A stretch of DNA of 64,000 bases from Natrinema sp. SYSU A 869 (GCF_019879105.1 NZ_CP082249.1:1116001-1180000), one strand, 5' to 3'. Counted from the first letter of the stretch, positions 1,617-9,663 are shown. A program made the numbers and translations. Notes: generated from the sequence alone by a model not told the origin.

Positions 1617-3761
1617 TCAGTCGTCGTCGGCCGCCGGATCGGCGGTCTCGCCGAGGGGTTCGATATCGACATCGATCTCCGCAGCGGCGGCCTTGTACTC
1701 GGGGATCTTCGACCGCTCGTCGAGGACGTGATTCGTGAGCTTGTTCGCCGACGCGGCGGCGAAGTGCGGCGTCGTCCAGACGACGCCCTCCTTGGTGTCC
1801 TCGGTCACGTGGGCCTCGAGCGTGATCTCCCCGCGCCGGGAGCGGAGTCGGACGTACTCGTCGTCTTCGATCCCGTAGCGCTCTGCGTCGGCGGGGTGGA
1901 CGTCGACGAAGTTCTCCGGCGTTTGCTTGTTGAGCGTCGGCGATCGCGTGCTCATCGTCCCGGTGTTGTAGTGTTCCTCGAGGCGCGCCGTCGTGAGGAT
2001 CAGCGGGTACTCGTCGTCGGGCGTCTCGGCTGGCGGCTGGTGGGCGACGCCCTCGATGTGGCCCCGTCCGCTCTCGGTGTCGAACTCGTGCTCGTAGAGG
2101 AACGGATCACCTTCGTCGCCGGGTTCGTAGCAGGGCCAGTGCAGTCCTTCCTCACCGAGCAGGTCGTACGTCATTCCGTGGTAGCTCGGACAGACCTGCC
2201 GGAGCTCCTCGAAGATTTCCTCGGGGTCCTCGAAGTCGAAACCACCGGGGCCGAACAGACGCGTTCCGATCTCGCTCAGAATCTCGCGGTCGTGTTTCGT
2301 GTTCTCGTGGACTTTCCCCACGCCGCGCATCCGCTGGACGCGACGGTCGGTGTTGGTGACGGTGCCGCCGCGCTCGGCCCAGGTTGTGGCAGGGAGGATG
2401 ACATCGGCGTACTCCGCGGTTTCGGTCGGGAAGATATCTTGGACGACCGTGAACTCGAGGTCTGCGAGCCGTTCCGCGACCTCGTTGGCGTCGGGCTCGC
2501 TCATCACTGGGTTCTCGCCCATGACGTAGAGGCCCTTGATCGAATCGCCTGCCTCGTAGGAGATTTCGACGTTCGTCAGGCCGGGCTCGTCCGGGATTTC
2601 GAAGCCCCAGACTTCCTCGACGGCTTCACGGGCCTCGTCATCGTCGACGAGCTGGTAGCCCGGCAGGACGTTCGGCATCGCACCGACGTCACAGGTCCCC
2701 TGCACGTTGTTCTGACCGCGCAGCGGATTGACGCCCGTGCCGGGCCGGCCGAGGTTACCCGTGATCAGCGCCAGATTGATCTCGTTTTGTACATTGTCGA
2801 CGCCGCAGGCGTGCTGGCTCATCCCCATCCCGGTGAAGATGGCCGCGTTGTTTGCCATCGCGTACTTCTCCGCCGCCAGTTCGATCTCCTCCAGTGGCAC
2901 GCCGCACTCCTCGGCGGCGGCCTCCTTGTCGAAGTCCTCGAGCGTCTCTTTGAGGTGGTTGAACCCTTCCGTGCGTTCCTCGATGAATTCCTCGTCGATC
3001 CAGCCCTCGTCGGGGTTTTCCTCGTGGTTCTCAAGGACCGTCTTGAGGACGATATTCAACAGCGGGATGTCGGTGCCGGGGTTCAACTGGAGGTGCTGGT
3101 GACGGTCGGTGTCGTCGATCTGGAACGACCGCGATGTCTTGTTGGCGTGTGGATCGACCTGAATGACCGTCGCCCCCTCCAGTACTGCCTGCCGGAAGTA
3201 CTGGCTGTTTGCGATGGGATGTTGCTCGCCAGGGTTCGCCCCCTGAATCCAGAACACGTCGGCCTCCTCGCGGAGGTCGCGCATGCTGTTGGTCATCGCC
3301 CCCGCACCCAGACTTGTCCGCAGCGCCCAGACCGTTGAGGCGTGACACATCCGCGTGCAGTTGTCGACGTTGTTGGTCCCGTAGCGGCGGGCCAGTTTCT
3401 GAAGGAGGTAGTTCTCCTCGTTCATCACCTTCGAGGAGCCGAAAAAGCCCATCGCGTCCGGACCATACTCCTCGTGGATCCGCTCGAGTTCGCTGACGAT
3501 GTACTCGTAGGCCTCCTCCCAGGTGGCCTCGCGGAACTCGCCGTCCTCCTTGATCAGCGGATCGGTGAGTCGGTCCTCGTGGTCGACGACTTCCGTCGCC
3601 GCCCCGCCTTTGATGCAGATGCGGCCCTCGTTGACCGGGGCCTCACCCCACGGCATGAATCGGACGTCGCCGGGTTCCTCGCCTGGCTGTACCTTGATTC
3701 CACAGCCGACACCGCAGTACGGACAGATCGTCTTGACTGGTTCTTGCTGATCACTGGACAT
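1617..3761 (-). CDS. fdhF: Formate dehydrogenase alpha subunit, molybdopterin oxidoreductase
   Basis: A 714-residue bis-MGD enzyme of the FdhF family, expected to oxidise formate to CO2. The N-terminal 4Fe-4S motif CPYCGVGCGIKV gives Cys13, Cys16 and Cys20, with a fourth Cys in GRICIKG (Cys49). NCTRMCHASTV places the metal-ligand cysteine at about residue 139, where E. coli FdhF has selenocysteine 140. Later motifs ANPGEQHPIANS, MGMSQHACGVDNV and the C-terminal cofactor-cap region (YPLILTTARLEEHYNTGTMSTRSP) are intact. There is no adjacent FeS or membrane subunit, so the electron acceptor is unknown. mobA lies 0.8 kb away. Confidence 0.92.
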   Translation of the reverse strand: MSSDQQEPVKTICPYCGVGCGIKVQPGEEPGDVRFMPWGEAPVNEGRICIKGGAATEVVDHEDRLTDPLIKEDGEFREATWEEAYEYIVSELERIHEEYGPDAMGFFGSSKVMNEENYLLQKLARRYGTNNVDNCTRMCHASTVWALRTSLGAGAMTNSMRDLREEADVFWIQGANPGEQHPIANSQYFRQAVLEGATVIQVDPHANKTSRSFQIDDTDRHQHLQLNPGTDIPLLNIVLKTVLENHEENPDEGWIDEEFIEERTEGFNHLKETLEDFDKEAAAEECGVPLEEIELAAEKYAMANNAAIFTGMGMSQHACGVDNVQNEINLALITGNLGRPGTGVNPLRGQNNVQGTCDVGAMPNVLPGYQLVDDDEAREAVEEVWGFEIPDEPGLTNVEISYEAGDSIKGLYVMGENPVMSEPDANEVAERLADLEFTVVQDIFPTETAEYADVILPATTWAERGGTVTNTDRRVQRMRGVGKVHENTKHDREILSEIGTRLFGPGGFDFEDPEEIFEELRQVCPSYHGMTYDLLGEEGLHWPCYEPGDEGDPFLYEHEFDTESGRGHIEGVAHQPPAETPDDEYPLILTTARLEEHYNTGTMSTRSPTLNKQTPENFVDVHPADAERYGIEDDEYVRLRSRRGEITLEAHVTEDTKEGVVWTTPHFAAASANKLTNHVLDERSKIPEYKAAAAEIDVDIEPLGETADPAADDD

Positions 3762-3953: not shown

Positions 3954-4520
3954 ATGGTGCTCACGCGTTCGCTCGTGAACTCTCGGGCTCACGAGTATCG
4001 GGAGCAGGAACCCCTGTACGCCGTAGAAGAGGAACAACTCGAGACGCTCCCGTCGGCGTTCACGTCGGGCGAGTACGGCCGGCGGGACGCGGTCTGGGTC
4101 GTCAGATGGTACTACCGACGATTCCTCGGGGACTACCCTGACGACGAGCGACGGGACGCGGAGGAGCGGTTCCGGAACAACGACGTCGAGGCCGTCCGAG
4201 ACGCCATCGCCGACGCCGTCGACGCGAGCGACGCCGCCGCGGGAGTTGACTCGCTGACCACTCTCGAGGCTGTCGACGTGCCCGTCGCCTCGGCGTTCCT
4301 CATGTTTATCGACCCCGAGGAATACGTCGTCGTCGGCCCTCGAGAGTGGTCGGCACTCCGGGAGGCCGGCGAACTCTCCCGGCCATATCCCGATCCGCCG
4401 TCCGTTTCGCAGTACGAGACCTATCTCGAGTGCTGCCGCTCGCTTGCAGCCCGCTTTGATTGCGATCTGTGGACGTTGTACCGGGCGCTCTGGCGGCTAT
4501 CGGAATACGCGACCGAGTAG
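3954..4520 (+). CDS. Conserved haloarchaeal hypothetical protein
   Basis: A 188-residue soluble acidic protein. The middle (VDVPVASAFLMFIDPEEYVVVGPREWSAL) and the end (YETYLECCRSLAARFDCDLWTLYRALWRLS) recall proteins of the helix-hairpin-helix DNA-glycosylase fold, which share the pattern 'special-pair small residues, F-x-D/P-x-x-Y, then a C-terminal ALW'. I see no catalytic Lys/Asp motif, so no enzymatic role is assigned. It ends 58 bases before mobA on the same strand and could be co-transcribed with it. Confidence 0.8.
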   Translation: MVLTRSLVNSRAHEYREQEPLYAVEEEQLETLPSAFTSGEYGRRDAVWVVRWYYRRFLGDYPDDERRDAEERFRNNDVEAVRDAIADAVDASDAAAGVDSLTTLEAVDVPVASAFLMFIDPEEYVVVGPREWSALREAGELSRPYPDPPSVSQYETYLECCRSLAARFDCDLWTLYRALWRLSEYATE

Positions 4521-4578
4521 GACTATGACCCGGGTGTTCGACCAGAAGTTTTTGGTATCGCTGGACGAACGGTCGACC

Positions 4579-5223
4579 ATGAACCGCGAAACTGGCCGAG
4601 ACGAGCGCACGGGGGTCGTCCTCGCAGGCGGTCACTCGACCCGCTTCGGTGATGACGACAAGGCCGTCGCCGACCTCGCCGGAACACCGATGATCCGCCA
4701 CGTCGCCGACCGGATCGAGCCCGTCGTCGACGACCTGGTCGTCAACTGCCGCGAAGCGCAGGTCCCGGCGATCCGCAGGGCACTCGAGGGCGGACCCAAC
4801 GCCTCGTTCGCAACCGATCCAATCCCCGACCGCGGGCCGATGGCGGGAATCATGACCGGGCTTCGAGCAGCCGCGGGCGAGTACGCTCTCGTCGTCGCCT
4901 GCGACATGCCGTTCGTCGATCCCGCCCTCGTCGACCACCTCTTCGACCGAGCGGCCGGCCACGAGGCCGCGGTTCCGCGGCTCGACGACCAGTGGTTCCA
5001 GACCACCCAAGCCGTCTACCGGGCCGAGCCGATGATCGACGCCTGTGAGCGCGCCCTCGAGCGCGACGAGCGAAAAATCGTCGAACCACTGTTCGACCTC
5101 GACTACGTCGTCGTCGACGAGGACGAGATTCGCGACCACGCAGCGCTCGAGACCTTCGAGAACATCAACACCCGCGAGGAGGTCGAGGACGCGACTGAGC
5201 GGCTTCAAGAGGACCGAACGTAA
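4579..5223 (+). CDS. mobA: Molybdenum cofactor guanylyltransferase
   Basis: A 214-residue nucleotidyltransferase-fold protein that joins GMP to molybdopterin, producing the MGD cofactor used by enzymes such as FdhF. The start is MNRETGRDERTGVVLAGGHSTRFG, with the nucleotide-binding GVVLAGGHSTRFGDDDK loop. DRGPMAGIMTGLRA and VVACDMPFVDP, carrying the metal-binding Asp, follow. An upstream in-frame ATG at 4444 lies inside the preceding gene, so the ATG at 4579 is preferred. The neighbouring formate dehydrogenase is a plausible client. Confidence 0.9.
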   Translation: MNRETGRDERTGVVLAGGHSTRFGDDDKAVADLAGTPMIRHVADRIEPVVDDLVVNCREAQVPAIRRALEGGPNASFATDPIPDRGPMAGIMTGLRAAAGEYALVVACDMPFVDPALVDHLFDRAAGHEAAVPRLDDQWFQTTQAVYRAEPMIDACERALERDERKIVEPLFDLDYVVVDEDEIRDHAALETFENINTREEVEDATERLQEDRT

Positions 5224-5409: not shown

Positions 5410-5832
5410 CTACTCGACCTGAACCGTCCCGACCATCCCGGAACTCTCGTGGGGAATACAGTAGTATTCGTACGTTCCGGGTACCTCGAATGTCCGCTCG
5501 TACTCGGAATTCGGCGAGAAGAGGCCCGCTGTCACGTTATTTCTCGCGGCACGCTCGGACTCGAAGCCCCCGCTTGCGAAGTACGCGGCATCGTCCGGGA
5601 GCTCGGCTTCGGAAGCGGTGACCGTGTGATCGACGTTGCTCGTGTTCTCCCAGATCACGGTCCGGTCGGTTCCGATCGTCATCACCGCCGGATCGAACCC
5701 GAAATCACCGGTCATCGTGACGGTCCGATCGGTCGACGACCGCCTGTTCAGACACCCGGCGGTACCGATCGTCGCAAGCGCGGCACCGCTGAGACGTAAG
5801 ATCGTCCGCCGATCACAGCAGTCGGATGGCAT
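5410..5832 (-). CDS. Halocyanin-like blue copper protein (lipoprotein)
   Basis: 140 residues. The N-terminus CCDRRTILRLSGAALATIGTAGC combines a twin-arginine motif with a lipobox ending at Cys, so the protein is probably Tat-exported and lipid-anchored. The cupredoxin domain holds the type-1 copper ligands: His in NVDHTVTAS, then Cys, His and Met in EYYCIPHESSGMVGTV. Such proteins carry single electrons outside the membrane. It lies 29 bases downstream of the ZIP permease and appears to be the last gene of the multicopper oxidase-ZIP-halocyanin operon, which suggests it serves as electron acceptor or copper partner of the oxidase. Confidence 0.9.
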   Translation of the reverse strand: MPSDCCDRRTILRLSGAALATIGTAGCLNRRSSTDRTVTMTGDFGFDPAVMTIGTDRTVIWENTSNVDHTVTASEAELPDDAAYFASGGFESERAARNNVTAGLFSPNSEYERTFEVPGTYEYYCIPHESSGMVGTVQVE

Positions 5833-5861
5833 TGGATACGATGGATGAAACGTGGGTCGTG

Positions 5862-7112
5862 TTAGATCGCGACGAAGAGATCGGTCGCGTACATCACGCC
5901 GAAGCCGATCAGGAAGGCCAGCAGATTTGTGGCGCTTCCGACGCGTCCACCCGCGTCACGAACCATCCGTGCGATCTCCCAGTCGACCTGGAGGATCGCA
6001 CCGACACCGATCGCGAGGAAGAACGCACCGACCGTCGGCGAGTAGGCGAGGCTCCCGATCCATCCGCCGAGGATGACGGGTGCGCCGGCGAGGAGACCGA
6101 GTGCCACGAAGTGCCACCAGGCCGGGCGCTCGTCGCGCGCGACCGGCGCAACGACGGCCGGCCCTTCGGTCACGTTGTGGAGCATGAACCCGATGACGAG
6201 GAACGCACCGAGCGAGACGCGACCGAGCGCGAACGAACTCCCGATGGCGAGTCCCTCCGCGAGGTTGTGTAAGCCAATTCCAAGCGCCACCAGATACGCG
6301 ACCCAGAGACCGCTGCTCGCTCGACTGTCACCGGCGGCGGCGCGTCCCTCCCGCCACGAACTGATCGACTGGACGAGTAACAGGGCACCAAGAATGCCGG
6401 AGACGACCAGGAGGTTGCCTTCGTAGGCACCCGGGATTCGCTCGGCGAGTTCGAACGCCTCGAACCCGGCGTCGAACGCAAGGAAGCCGAGCACGCCGGT
6501 GGCAAACAAGAGAACGGCGTGCAAAGTGCGGTCACTCATCGTCCGGATGTACGGGAACCAGAGCATTCCGAGCGCGACCGGAATCACCCCGACGAACAGT
6601 CCGATGAGCGCCAGCGTCCACAGGACGTCAGCGCTGAATCCGGGCGTCTGCTGGGGTGCTTCGATATCGTGACCGATCGTCGTGCCGTCCGAGAGCACGA
6701 GATCGACTTCGAGATCCCAGCCCGGGTTCCAGTGATACGGAACAGTGACGCGTGCGCTTTCTCGCGGCTCGAGCGTCCGGTCACCACCAGCGCCCTCGAC
6801 GCGGAAGTCCCAGTAGGCCTCGTCGACGAGGACCTGAGAGATCGTCACTTCCTCCGGGCCGTTGTTCGTGACGTGCAGGACGACGGTGTCATCACTCGGC
6901 AGCGTGGTGTGAGTGACCGTCACGTCGGGGAGCGGTTCACCGCTCTGTACCCCTGCGAGGGGAGAGGTGAACACGAACGCGCCCAAGACGAGTACGAGCA
7001 ACACGATCGGGAGCAACGCGGTGACCCATCGTGGGACGCCGAATGGCTGCCCGAGCTCGTTCTCGGCCGTTACGCCTCCGTCCGTCGTCGTCTCTCGTCG
7101 GTTATCCGCCAT
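5862..7112 (-). CDS. ZIP-family metal permease with extra N-terminal exocytoplasmic domain
   Basis: 416 residues. A first membrane helix (about residues 29-48) is followed by a roughly 110-residue beta-rich exocytoplasmic segment (VTVTHTTLPSDDTVVLHVTNN onward). About eight helices then form a ZIP transporter. Metal-site motifs are GLHNLAEGLAIGSS and the following helix's FMLHNVTEGPAVV. ZIP proteins import divalent metals such as Zn, Fe or Mn. The start codon directly abuts the stop of the multicopper oxidase, implying translational coupling, and halocyanin follows. The extra exocytoplasmic domain could receive metal from, or dock with, the oxidase (inference). The substrate is unknown. Confidence 0.85.
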   Translation of the reverse strand: MADNRRETTTDGGVTAENELGQPFGVPRWVTALLPIVLLVLVLGAFVFTSPLAGVQSGEPLPDVTVTHTTLPSDDTVVLHVTNNGPEEVTISQVLVDEAYWDFRVEGAGGDRTLEPRESARVTVPYHWNPGWDLEVDLVLSDGTTIGHDIEAPQQTPGFSADVLWTLALIGLFVGVIPVALGMLWFPYIRTMSDRTLHAVLLFATGVLGFLAFDAGFEAFELAERIPGAYEGNLLVVSGILGALLLVQSISSWREGRAAAGDSRASSGLWVAYLVALGIGLHNLAEGLAIGSSFALGRVSLGAFLVIGFMLHNVTEGPAVVAPVARDERPAWWHFVALGLLAGAPVILGGWIGSLAYSPTVGAFFLAIGVGAILQVDWEIARMVRDAGGRVGSATNLLAFLIGFGVMYATDLFVAI

Positions 7113-8374
7113 TTAAACCACCTCGAAGAAGCTCATCCAGCCGAGTTCGGCGAACTCCGACTGGTGAGCGTGGAACATGTACAGCCCCGGTTCGTGATCG
7201 GAGTAGTCGAGTTCGATGATACCCCGCTGCGCCTGCGTCTGCATGATAGTGTCGACGGTCTGTCGCGTCGGCAACAATGTCGTTCCGTGGTCGTAGTACT
7301 CGAAGAACTGCGAGTGGGTGTGGAAGGAATTGATGGGGTCGAACTCCGTCGTGTTCACGAGATACACCCGCTGACGTTCGTTCTTGTCGATCTGGATGGG
7401 GTGTTTCGTCTCGCCAGCCTTCCAGTCGCCGTTCCCGTCGGTCTCGCCGACACCGTAGGCGAAGGCCCGCGTGTTCGCGGCGTACACCTCGTTTTCGCCG
7501 TCGAAGTCGGTGTCGAACGAGTTCATCACGATCACCAGCTCGTTGACGGCGTCGTTCTCGGCGTACTCGTGGTTGCGCGTCCTGGCTTCGGTGACCAGGT
7601 CATCGACCATCGTGTCGGTGATCTGGCTCGGATGATCGGTCACGTAGTCGGCCGGGGTATTCCTGACTCGTTCGGGATCCGGGTCGACGATGATCGTGCC
7701 GTAAAGGCCTCGATGGATGTGCTCTTTTAACGGCAGCGAGTGGCAGTGATAGAAGTGCACGCCGGCGGGCTGTGCAATCCACTCGTAGGTGTACGACTCG
7801 CCGGTCTCGAGCACGCCGGGTCCGTTCTGGGGGATCCCGTCCATTTCGGGGTTGAGATTCTTCAGGTGAGGATGAATCGTGTGGGCGTGCCGCCCGAGGT
7901 TTCGAACGTGACTCGAATGAGATCACCCTCGACGGCGCGGATCGTCGGCCCCGGCACCTGCCCGTTGAACGCCCAGGCTTCGAACTCGATGCCGGGTGCG
8001 ATCGTGATCGTCGTGTCGACTGCGGTGAACTCGAACTCTCGAACGGTTCGACCGTCCTCCTCGTAAACCCGCTGTGGGACGGTGTCCTGACCGCCGTCCC
8101 CGGTGTTGAACGTAGTCAGGAACTCGTGGGGATCGAAATTCGCATCGCGATATTCGTCGACGGCACCGAATGTACCGTGTTCGTCCTCGTCATCGTGACC
8201 GGAATTGGCACCCGCCTGTGTGCTCCCGATCCCGATAGCTGCACTCCCGGCGATCCCCAGCCCGCCGAGCACCGTTCGTCGGCTGACGTCCGGCTTCTCA
8301 CCGACTGCCTCGACGAGTCGCTCCTCGAGCTGTTCTGTCAGTTCAGCTGCGCTGTTATAATCTATCGATGGCAT
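7113..8374 (-). pseudogene. Two-domain multicopper oxidase, frameshifted (one base missing near 7903)
   Basis: The N-terminal part starts at 8374 with the Tat signal DVSRRTVLGGLGIAGSAAIG and runs to a premature TGA at 7862. The other part reads in another frame from about 7900 to 7113. Inserting one base near 7903 restores ...VTF(R)NLGRHAHTIHPHLKNLNPEMDGIPQ and a 420-residue protein. Copper ligands are HAHTIH, HFYHCHS, FHTHSQ and MFHAHQSEF. It is an exported laccase/nitrite-reductase-like oxidase leading the operon with the ZIP permease and halocyanin. The break is probably a sequencing undercall, since five other genes here show the same defect and both halves are well conserved. Confidence 0.85.
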
Positions 8375-8430: not shown

Positions 8431-8462
8431 CTATATTAATTTGACGCGTCTAAACCTAGGTT
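8431..8462 (-). promoter_or_regulatory. Promoter and operator-like box of the multicopper oxidase operon (copy 1)
   Basis: On the minus strand a TATA-like AATTAATATAG lies about 60 bases upstream of the oxidase start. Directly upstream of it is a 26-base element (8437-8462) containing the palindromes AACCTAGGTT and GACGCGTC. The same element, 22 of 26 identical, recurs at 8677-8702. Its position next to the TATA box fits a regulator or recruiter site, possibly metal-responsive given the genes it precedes (inference). Confidence 0.5.
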
Positions 8463-8676: not shown

Positions 8677-8702
8677 TAATTAGACGGGGCTAAACCTATG
8701 TT
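8677..8702 (-). repeat. Second copy of the 26-base promoter box
   Basis: This copy matches 8437-8462 at 22 of 26 positions, including the unbroken core CTAAACCTA, and like it is flanked by a CTATA sequence on the same side. It could be an upstream second promoter of the oxidase operon. I found no credible small gene between the two copies. Confidence 0.5.
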
Positions 8703-8913: not shown

Positions 8914-9663
8914 CTAGTTCTCGAGGACGTCGACCACCGGTTCCTCCGCGACCATCCGCGTCAAAACGACTCGCCTCACGGCCGGCGCTCGCTCGAGTAC
9001 CTCCGTCCCAATCTCTGCGGCGACGTCCCGCAGATCGTCGTCGTCGACCTTGTTGAGCAGCGGGACGACCGTCGCCCCCGCCGGCACGCTCTTCAGTCCG
9101 CCGCGCTCGCTCGCGAGCACGCGGGCCACGTCGACAGGGCGGATCGTGTCACCGCGATCGAGTCCGGTGATCGCCGTCACTCGCTCCGGTCGGTGAACGT
9201 GCTCGGCTGAGAGCGGCTTGCCGACGGCCTGAACGCTCGCGATCGGGACCACGGTGTCGACGCGCCGGGGGAGTTGTGGTTCGCGCTCGTTGGGAGCCTT
9301 GAACTCCCGCGTCCGCGCACCGTCGGCCTTGACGAGGACGAGATCGGCGACGTCGGCCGCCGCGAGGTCGTCGACGACCGCGGGGTCGTATCCCACGTAC
9401 CGGTCTTCCCCCTCCCGTTCCGGGACGACGCCGACCGGCCATTCGTCCGCTTGCTCGAGCGCCGCGACCGGGTCGTCTGTCACGGTGACCGCCTCGACGT
9501 GCCGGTCGAAGATGGGGATTCGAACCGTCGCCGTCACGACCGCTCGCAGGGAGTGGCTGCGAGCGGCCCGCGTGGCCAGCGTATAGAGCGTCGTCTTCTT
9601 GCCGCCCGCACCGACGACCGCGACGACGCCGGACTCGGCTCGAAGCGCTTCGAGGACGTTCAT
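8914..9663 (-). CDS. yqeC: YqeC-like NTPase (selenium-dependent hydroxylase accessory family)
   Basis: 249 residues. The N-terminal P-loop-like VVAVVGAGGKKTTLYTLA, TATVRIP, LVLVKADGARTREFKAPNEREPQLP and LLNKVDD are hallmarks of the YqeC family (TIGR03172). Its members occur with molybdenum hydroxylase maturation genes, where they are thought to act in cofactor processing or insertion; the exact reaction is unknown to me. No xanthine-dehydrogenase-type hydroxylase is seen in this window. It fits the Mo theme of the first 10 kb. Confidence 0.85.
   Translation of the reverse strand: MNVLEALRAESGVVAVVGAGGKKTTLYTLATRAARSHSLRAVVTATVRIPIFDRHVEAVTVTDDPVAALEQADEWPVGVVPEREGEDRYVGYDPAVVDDLAAADVADLVLVKADGARTREFKAPNEREPQLPRRVDTVVPIASVQAVGKPLSAEHVHRPERVTAITGLDRGDTIRPVDVARVLASERGGLKSVPAGATVVPLLNKVDDDDLRDVAAEIGTEVLERAPAVRRVVLTRMVAEEPVVDVLEN

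Follow-up and report, generated by a model that had tools for sequence, protein, structure and literature searches.

Genes encoding a two-domain multicopper oxidase (MCO), a ZIP permease and a small blue copper protein form one operon in Natrinema sp. SYSU A 869. The operon is, on balance, probably a divalent-metal importer controlled by a regulator of the MntR/SirR type and most likely serving Mn(II), in which the oxidase would act on metal at the outer face of the ZIP. It is placed with divalent-metal uptake systems, best those for Mn, because of its regulation. We infer Mn as the imported ion; a physical coupling of MCO and ZIP, the species oxidised by the MCO and the route of the electrons are putative features.

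The window analyzed is a stretch of 64,000 nucleotides, and its host genome measures 5.67 Mb in 3 contigs. The relevant features, all on the minus strand, are the following.

8679..8694, minus strand: TTTAGCCCCGTCTAAT, the other of two palindromes preceding the operon
8439..8454, minus strand: palindrome TTTAGACGCGTCAAAT, which precedes the MCO and is a candidate SirR/MntR operator
8374..7862, minus strand: 5' part of the MCO gene, 170 aa, Tat-type signal SRRTVLGG, premature stop, PF07732 match (E 5e-5)
7900..7902, minus strand: frameshift site in the MCO, AAA vs AAAA in congeners
7844..7113, minus strand: 3' part of the MCO gene, HCH type-1 Cu site and C-terminal HxH motifs
7112..5862, minus strand: ZIP, 416 aa, GufA/ZupT-like core plus N-terminal exocytoplasmic domain
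6663..6923, minus strand: part of the ZIP gene coding for an Ig-like beta-sandwich (residues about 64–150)
5832..5410, minus strand: small blue copper (plastocyanin-like) protein, 140 aa, Tat/lipoprotein-type (lipobox) N-terminus

The genes follow each other on the minus strand as two-part MCO gene, ZIP and blue copper gene, with gaps of 0 bases between MCO and ZIP, and of 29 bases between ZIP and blue copper gene. The tight unit described in the earlier note was recovered with the same coordinates and spacings. The gene order given there is correct, but the MCO is not one ORF, a frameshift having been overlooked. The first ORF (8374..7862) is closed by a stop codon, and the rest of the gene is read in a different frame (7844..7113). 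Compared with two aligned congeners, one A is missing from the A run at 7900–7902, which results in a -1 frameshift just before the copper motif HAHTIH. All the copper motifs of the MCO are still encoded in the split copy. The MCO is intact, as a single 419-aa ORF, in the congener locus L035, where the ZIP is 93% identical. Codon differences from L035 are 29 synonymous vs 16 non-synonymous in the 5' part, and 39 synonymous vs 17 non-synonymous in the 3' part of the gene. Since the rest of the MCO gene is conserved, and most of the changes relative to the closest congener are synonymous, the break is either a mutation of very recent date or an error in the sequence. Programmed frameshifting was judged unlikely, because congeners keep the frame at the same position. 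In this genome, as sequenced, the oxidase frame is broken, which counts against the Mn reading. Neighbouring mobA-like, formate-dehydrogenase-like and YqeC-like genes were rejected as members of the system, because in a congener (locus L036 of genome G013) the trio sits among other flanks.

The MCO is made by two cupredoxin domains, and is assigned by motifs and model match to type-C two-domain multicopper oxidases. In 37 relatives there is no variation in the type-1 Cys or in any of the four HxH pairs that make up the trinuclear site (H168/H170, H210-C211-H212, H352/H354, H402/H404). Structure prediction was run on the protein of N. ejinorense, a species of the same genus (pLDDT 78). The best Foldseek match of the model is 7rab, an MCO from Marinithermus hydrothermalis (52% identity, TMt 0.92); the Arthrobacter MCO 3gdc also ranks well ahead of any nitrite reductase. 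Weak partial matches to the NirK profile TIGR02376, and the presence of NirK structures among the Foldseek matches, could be taken to mean that the oxidase is a copper nitrite reductase, or another respiratory enzyme lying beside a transporter by chance. This is hardly credible, as the profile scores (35–36 bits) are far under the cut-off of 296.3, the trinuclear HxH set is complete and invariant, the top structural match is a two-domain MCO, and pairing with the ZIP is universal in the loci found. NirK was accordingly rejected; nitrite reduction, given in the earlier note as an example of an activity unrelated to metals, does not fit an oxidase which is a trinuclear MCO by motifs and fold.

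The permease features a transmembrane segment at residues 28–49, a beta-sandwich at about 64–150, and then the ZIP core (model pLDDT 84.5). The extra exocytoplasmic domain claimed previously is found in the predicted model as the N-terminal transmembrane segment plus the beta-sandwich. The core is BbZIP-like, BbZIP being the top fold match. The metal motifs of ZIP cores, HNxxE in TM4 and HxxxE in TM5, are present as HNxxEG (H282-N283-E286) and HNxTEG (H312-N313-E316), both invariant in 43 sequences. The PF02535 score is 29.8 bits, under the gathering score of 35.1, and the permease is a divergent ZIP relative, placed by motifs and fold. In Foldseek, the beta-sandwich resembles the archaellum stator proteins ArlF/ArlG (E 8e-4), with PCuAC domains as weaker matches. 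Conserved residues of the sandwich (N83, Q93, V94, A99, W101, Y126, W128, G143) are mostly structural or aromatic, and not metal ligands, which suggests that this region may be a docking domain.

The 65 haloarchaeal loci fetched for analysis had been picked from prior MCO/ZIP hits. For this reason, an unbiased test of the association is provided by a scan of genome contigs in which the query was the ZIP alone, and the MCO was not used. MCO genes were found directly upstream of the ZIP in 80/80 loci (42 haloarchaeal and 38 bacterial, the latter from 8 phyla), and the pairing is therefore beyond chance. The bacterial loci reside in Chloroflexota, Gemmatimonadota, Planctomycetota, Poribacteria, Bacteroidota, Meiothermus/Calidithermus, Armatimonadota and Methylomirabilis. 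Across 391 genomes of haloarchaea, MCOs and full-length ZIPs bearing the N-domain adjoin almost 1:1; shorter ZIPs lacking the N-domain reside mostly in other genomes, where the MCO is absent. Since the MCO accompanies N-domain ZIPs, and ZIPs without N-domain occur without MCO, the N-domain is the likely contact point with the oxidase. The ZIP was also found in 145 plasmid records, including plasmids of Arthrobacter, Rhodococcus, Sinorhizobium, Sulfitobacter and Chroococcidiopsis, and adjacency to the MCO was seen in the six plasmid regions inspected. The possibility that the trio is unique to the window genome was rejected by the survey. The neighbourhood survey proposed in the earlier note found the trio to be a conserved unit, and its view of a unit of the metal-uptake type is supported.

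BbZIP, the protein closest to the ZIP core, transports Zn/Cd, and CDF and P1B ATPase genes are found nearby on haloarchaeal plasmids. The operon might hence serve the uptake of Zn, or of divalent metals broadly, with the oxidase involved in stress protection (e.g. removal of Cu(I)) rather than import. This is very improbable, as regulation is of the MntR class, and MCO and N-domain ZIP always come together, which argues for a joint function of the two proteins.

A gene of the DtxR/MntR family, with the same orientation as the pair, lies directly upstream of it in about 32 of the 65 haloarchaeal loci, a number which includes near-identical plasmid copies, and in 9/30 loci of a non-redundant set, obtained by removing ZIPs at least 90% identical. 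Many of the sirR genes upstream of the MCO were located by tblastn. In bacteria, a gene of the same family flanks the pair in 13/38 loci. Plasmids of Arthrobacter, Rubrobacter, Pseudosulfitobacter (where it is annotated as mntR) and Halorubrum also carry the regulator next to the pair. Nearly all the linked regulators carry Asp at the position of DtxR Met10; at the position of DtxR Cys102 they carry Asp or Glu, and Cys in none. Asp/Glu at these positions marks regulators of the Mn type, such as MntR, SloR and ScaR, the last two of which are among the closest solved relatives of the linked regulators. According to their domain make-up (DtxR + FeoA), we infer that the haloarchaeal regulators are SirR orthologues. 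In Halobacterium, SirR represses both its own gene and ABC genes for Mn uptake in a Mn(II)-dependent manner (PMC3600143). In the window genome sirR is located away from the operon (contig C3 of G000, about 315476–316153).

The palindrome TTTAGACnnGTCTAAW, allowing for up to 2 mismatches, is found upstream of the MCO in 52/65 haloarchaeal loci (null 0.14%); in most of the remaining loci it lies upstream of a sirR gene leading the operon. In bacteria, an exact WTTAG-N6-CTAAW box is found upstream in 19/37 loci (null 0.11%). The exact palindrome occurs about 29 times in 116 haloarchaeal genomes, vs 0 for the reversed control. Genes located behind it encode SirR-type regulators, binding proteins of ZnuA/TroA-type ABC systems, lone ZIPs, a GDT1-family protein and MCO-ZIP operons; a gene for a 61-aa protein is also found among them. 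The window genome carries five sites within one mismatch. Two precede the MCO operon, one is upstream of a GDT1 gene, and one lies about 11 bases upstream of sirR, the product of which is 65% identical to L183; the fifth is at C3:2429112. Two marks of a Mn-type regulon, a linked regulator with Mn-type ligand residues, and an operator common to the regulator and other metal-transport genes, are present. The idea that the unit handles Fe or Mn, put forward in the earlier note, is narrowed towards Mn because regulators of the MntR/SirR type are linked to the unit and an operator is shared with other metal-transport genes; its other part, the oxidation of the metal, is putative.

Iron is the main rival to Mn. 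According to this alternative, the MCO is a ferroxidase, the ZIP imports iron following the Fet3p-Ftr1 logic, and the DtxR-family regulator senses Fe. Boxes of the DtxR family are common to Fe and Mn regulators, and the fact that such boxes and regulators may also be used for Fe counts against the Mn reading. FeoA/FeoB-like genes (FeoB assigned by eye) are found upstream in loci L238 and L239. About 10 plasmid-type loci have PF10634 (Fe2+ transport)-type and DyP-like genes downstream, and a VIT1/CCC1 gene is found nearby in Arthrobacter. We regard iron uptake as unlikely nonetheless. The linked regulators have Asp/Glu, and not Met/Cys, at the two Fe-type marker positions of DtxR. ZnuA/TroA-type ABC, ZIP and GDT1 genes lie behind the same palindrome, and no siderophore genes were seen among them. 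ZIPs carry M2+, so that Fe(III) produced by the oxidase would not be the transported ion. Halobacterium SirR, moreover, is Mn-dependent (PMC3600143).

Acquisition of copper has been proposed for a similar gene pair in ammonia-oxidising archaea: the MCO would turn Cu(I) to Cu(II), which would enter via the ZIP. In Nitrososphaera viennensis, NVIE_000600 (MCO1) and the adjoining ZIP NVIE_000590 show moderately raised expression when Cu is limiting, and a Fet3p-like coupling was put forward by the authors (PMC7785015). The product of the third gene is a copper protein, and P1B ATPases, which may denote Cu as well as Zn, are found near some loci. For the operon described here copper uptake is quite improbable, as the linked regulators belong to the MntR/SirR class, and are not Cu sensors, and two copper proteins would be a costly means of fetching copper. 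Several of the nearby P1B ATPases carry a CPC motif, judged to denote a ZntA-like rather than a CopA-like setting.

The third protein of the operon, in the window, has the ligands of type-1 blue copper proteins (H69, C125, H128, M133), and its relatives share the pattern HTVTA...C.PH...M. The label halocyanin, used in the earlier note, had to be dropped: the TIGR03102 score is 45.1 bits vs a curated cut-off of 93.8, and plastocyanin-like type-1 Cu protein is a safer description. Blue copper genes follow the ZIP in 49/65 haloarchaeal loci (a redundant count; 2/49 are weak or partial), and adjoin it in 15/30 loci of the non-redundant set. Other small redox proteins are encoded at this position elsewhere: a cupredoxin in Planctomycetota and a mono-haem cytochrome c in two Chloroflexota (both assigned by motif), and a Rieske protein, the gene of which lies directly after the ZIP in Chroococcidiopsis, and two genes on in Rubrobacter. 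Because unrelated small redox proteins replace one another at this position, the gene arrangement supports a probable role in electron transfer, in agreement with the electron carrier previously proposed.

The operon may work as follows. When metal is sufficient, the SirR/MntR-type regulator, a member of the DtxR family, would repress transcription of the operon. When metal is scarce, the Tat-exported MCO, the ZIP and, in the lineage of the window, the membrane-anchored blue copper protein would be co-produced, and the ZIP would carry M2+ inward. The MCO, probably docked onto the beta-sandwich at the outer face of the ZIP, would act as an O2-dependent metallo-oxidase, electrons moving from the type-1 copper to O2 at the trinuclear site. 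Most likely it would oxidise a metal ion close to the importer. This could be Fe(II)/Cu(I) competing with Mn(II), the entry of which would thereby become selective, or Mn itself during capture. The small carrier (blue copper protein, cytochrome c or Rieske protein, depending on the phylum) would be the connection between oxidase and respiratory chain. Counting against the Mn reading, the sequence does not explain what use an oxidase would be to a ZIP that carries M2+. A broader proposal, offered tentatively, is that a MntR/SirR-controlled MCO, a ZIP with a docking domain and an exchangeable carrier make a mode of Mn acquisition common to archaea and bacteria, in which metal oxidation at the cell surface might drive or gate the import of Mn(II).

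Known systems share some of these traits. Fungal Fet3p-Ftr1 also combines a multicopper oxidase and a permease for metal import. Ftr1 belongs to the REXXE family, the oxidase has three domains and is membrane-anchored, an electron carrier is absent and regulation is eukaryotic; the permease described here is a ZIP, and not of the Ftr1-type REXXE family. The Mn oxidases of Pseudomonas putida GB-1 are different from, and larger than, the two-domain MCO. As in the present proposal, oxidase activity is tied in that bacterium to higher intracellular Mn, cell Mn being raised 5–59 fold by Mn oxidation, and a linked ZIP is not mentioned in the available part of the report (PMC3798386). The SirR regulon of Halobacterium (zurM, zurA, ycdH; PMC3600143) is similar to the predicted one, as a DtxR-family, Mn-dependent autorepressor controls Mn uptake; the MCO-ZIP-blue copper operon is not included in the regulon as described there. 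A close parallel to the gene arrangement is the MCO1-ZIP pair (NVIE_000600/NVIE_000590) of ammonia-oxidising archaea (PMC7785015): as in the present operon, a two-domain MCO with a Leu/Met axial ligand lies beside a ZIP, and a Fet3p-like coupling was proposed. The pair is proposed to serve Cu, and neither an adjacent blue copper gene nor a link to MntR/SirR is reported in the available passages. The statement that no such system had been described falls, because both the pairing of oxidase and ZIP and the comparison with Fet3p are already in print for these archaea. A partial literature search found no report of Mn-type regulation, occurrence in two domains of life, the N-domain ZIP or an exchangeable carrier, nor any experiment on transport, oxidase activity or DNA binding in this family; regulation, breadth and interchangeable carrier appear to be new.

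These data offer an alternative to the copper-uptake reading of the pair in ammonia-oxidising archaea, and bear on why microbes use multicopper oxidases in Mn homeostasis. The two-gene unit, found in haloarchaea and in at least eight bacterial phyla, and often behind a Mn-type switch, is a small, testable system. Gene order on a Halorubrum salinarum plasmid is sirR-MCO-ZIP-blue copper-P1B ATPase-CDF-STAS-GDT1-DtxR. The M. hydrothermalis MCO (7rab/7rac) and the Arthrobacter sp. FB24 MCO (3gdc) belong to the same oxidase family, and were solved as isolated enzymes. All 288 residues of 3gdc are the same as in the MCO of plasmid 1 of Arthrobacter FB24, where the gene lies between a metal-dependent regulator and an N-domain ZIP, which supplies a genomic and physiological context for this orphan structure.

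The multicopper oxidase (MCO) gene in the window lacks one base at positions 7900-7902, the rest of the operon being conserved; the deletion could be a sequencing error or mark a fresh pseudogene. The trio of MCO, ZIP permease and small blue copper gene is flanked by:

1617-3761, formate-dehydrogenase-like gene
4444-5223, mobA-like gene
8914-9663, YqeC-like gene

These flanks are common to the window and the congener locus L035, and are absent from those of L036, a further congener locus carrying the trio. Plasmid-type loci (L109, L116, L117, L126, L127 and similar) feature, downstream of the trio, DUF7405, weakly similar to the C-terminal part of DyP peroxidases, and a DUF7350/PF10634 iron-transport-type protein. 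Their copies are near-identical across different families, which indicates recent transfer.

The blue copper gene 3' of ZIP is interrupted by in-frame stop codons in two genomes (L107 in G388, L154 in G177), a hint that some lineages can do without this carrier or are losing it. In Planctomycetota (L263, L273, L251, L261) the genes run MntR-MCO-ZIP-cupredoxin, and next comes one for a 400-aa protein that contains a CxxCH motif (NTSCTSCHS) and may be a further electron carrier.

In five genomes (L172-L176) a nearly invariant 61-aa protein (MAFEEDDSVILHDEHSDYDGEEG...), which found no match in Pfam, is encoded ~210-230 bases downstream of a SirR-type palindrome, the candidate SirR/MntR operator. 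Within the genome of Natrinema sp. SYSU A 869, the fifth near-perfect palindrome of this type is at G000:C3:2429112-2429127.
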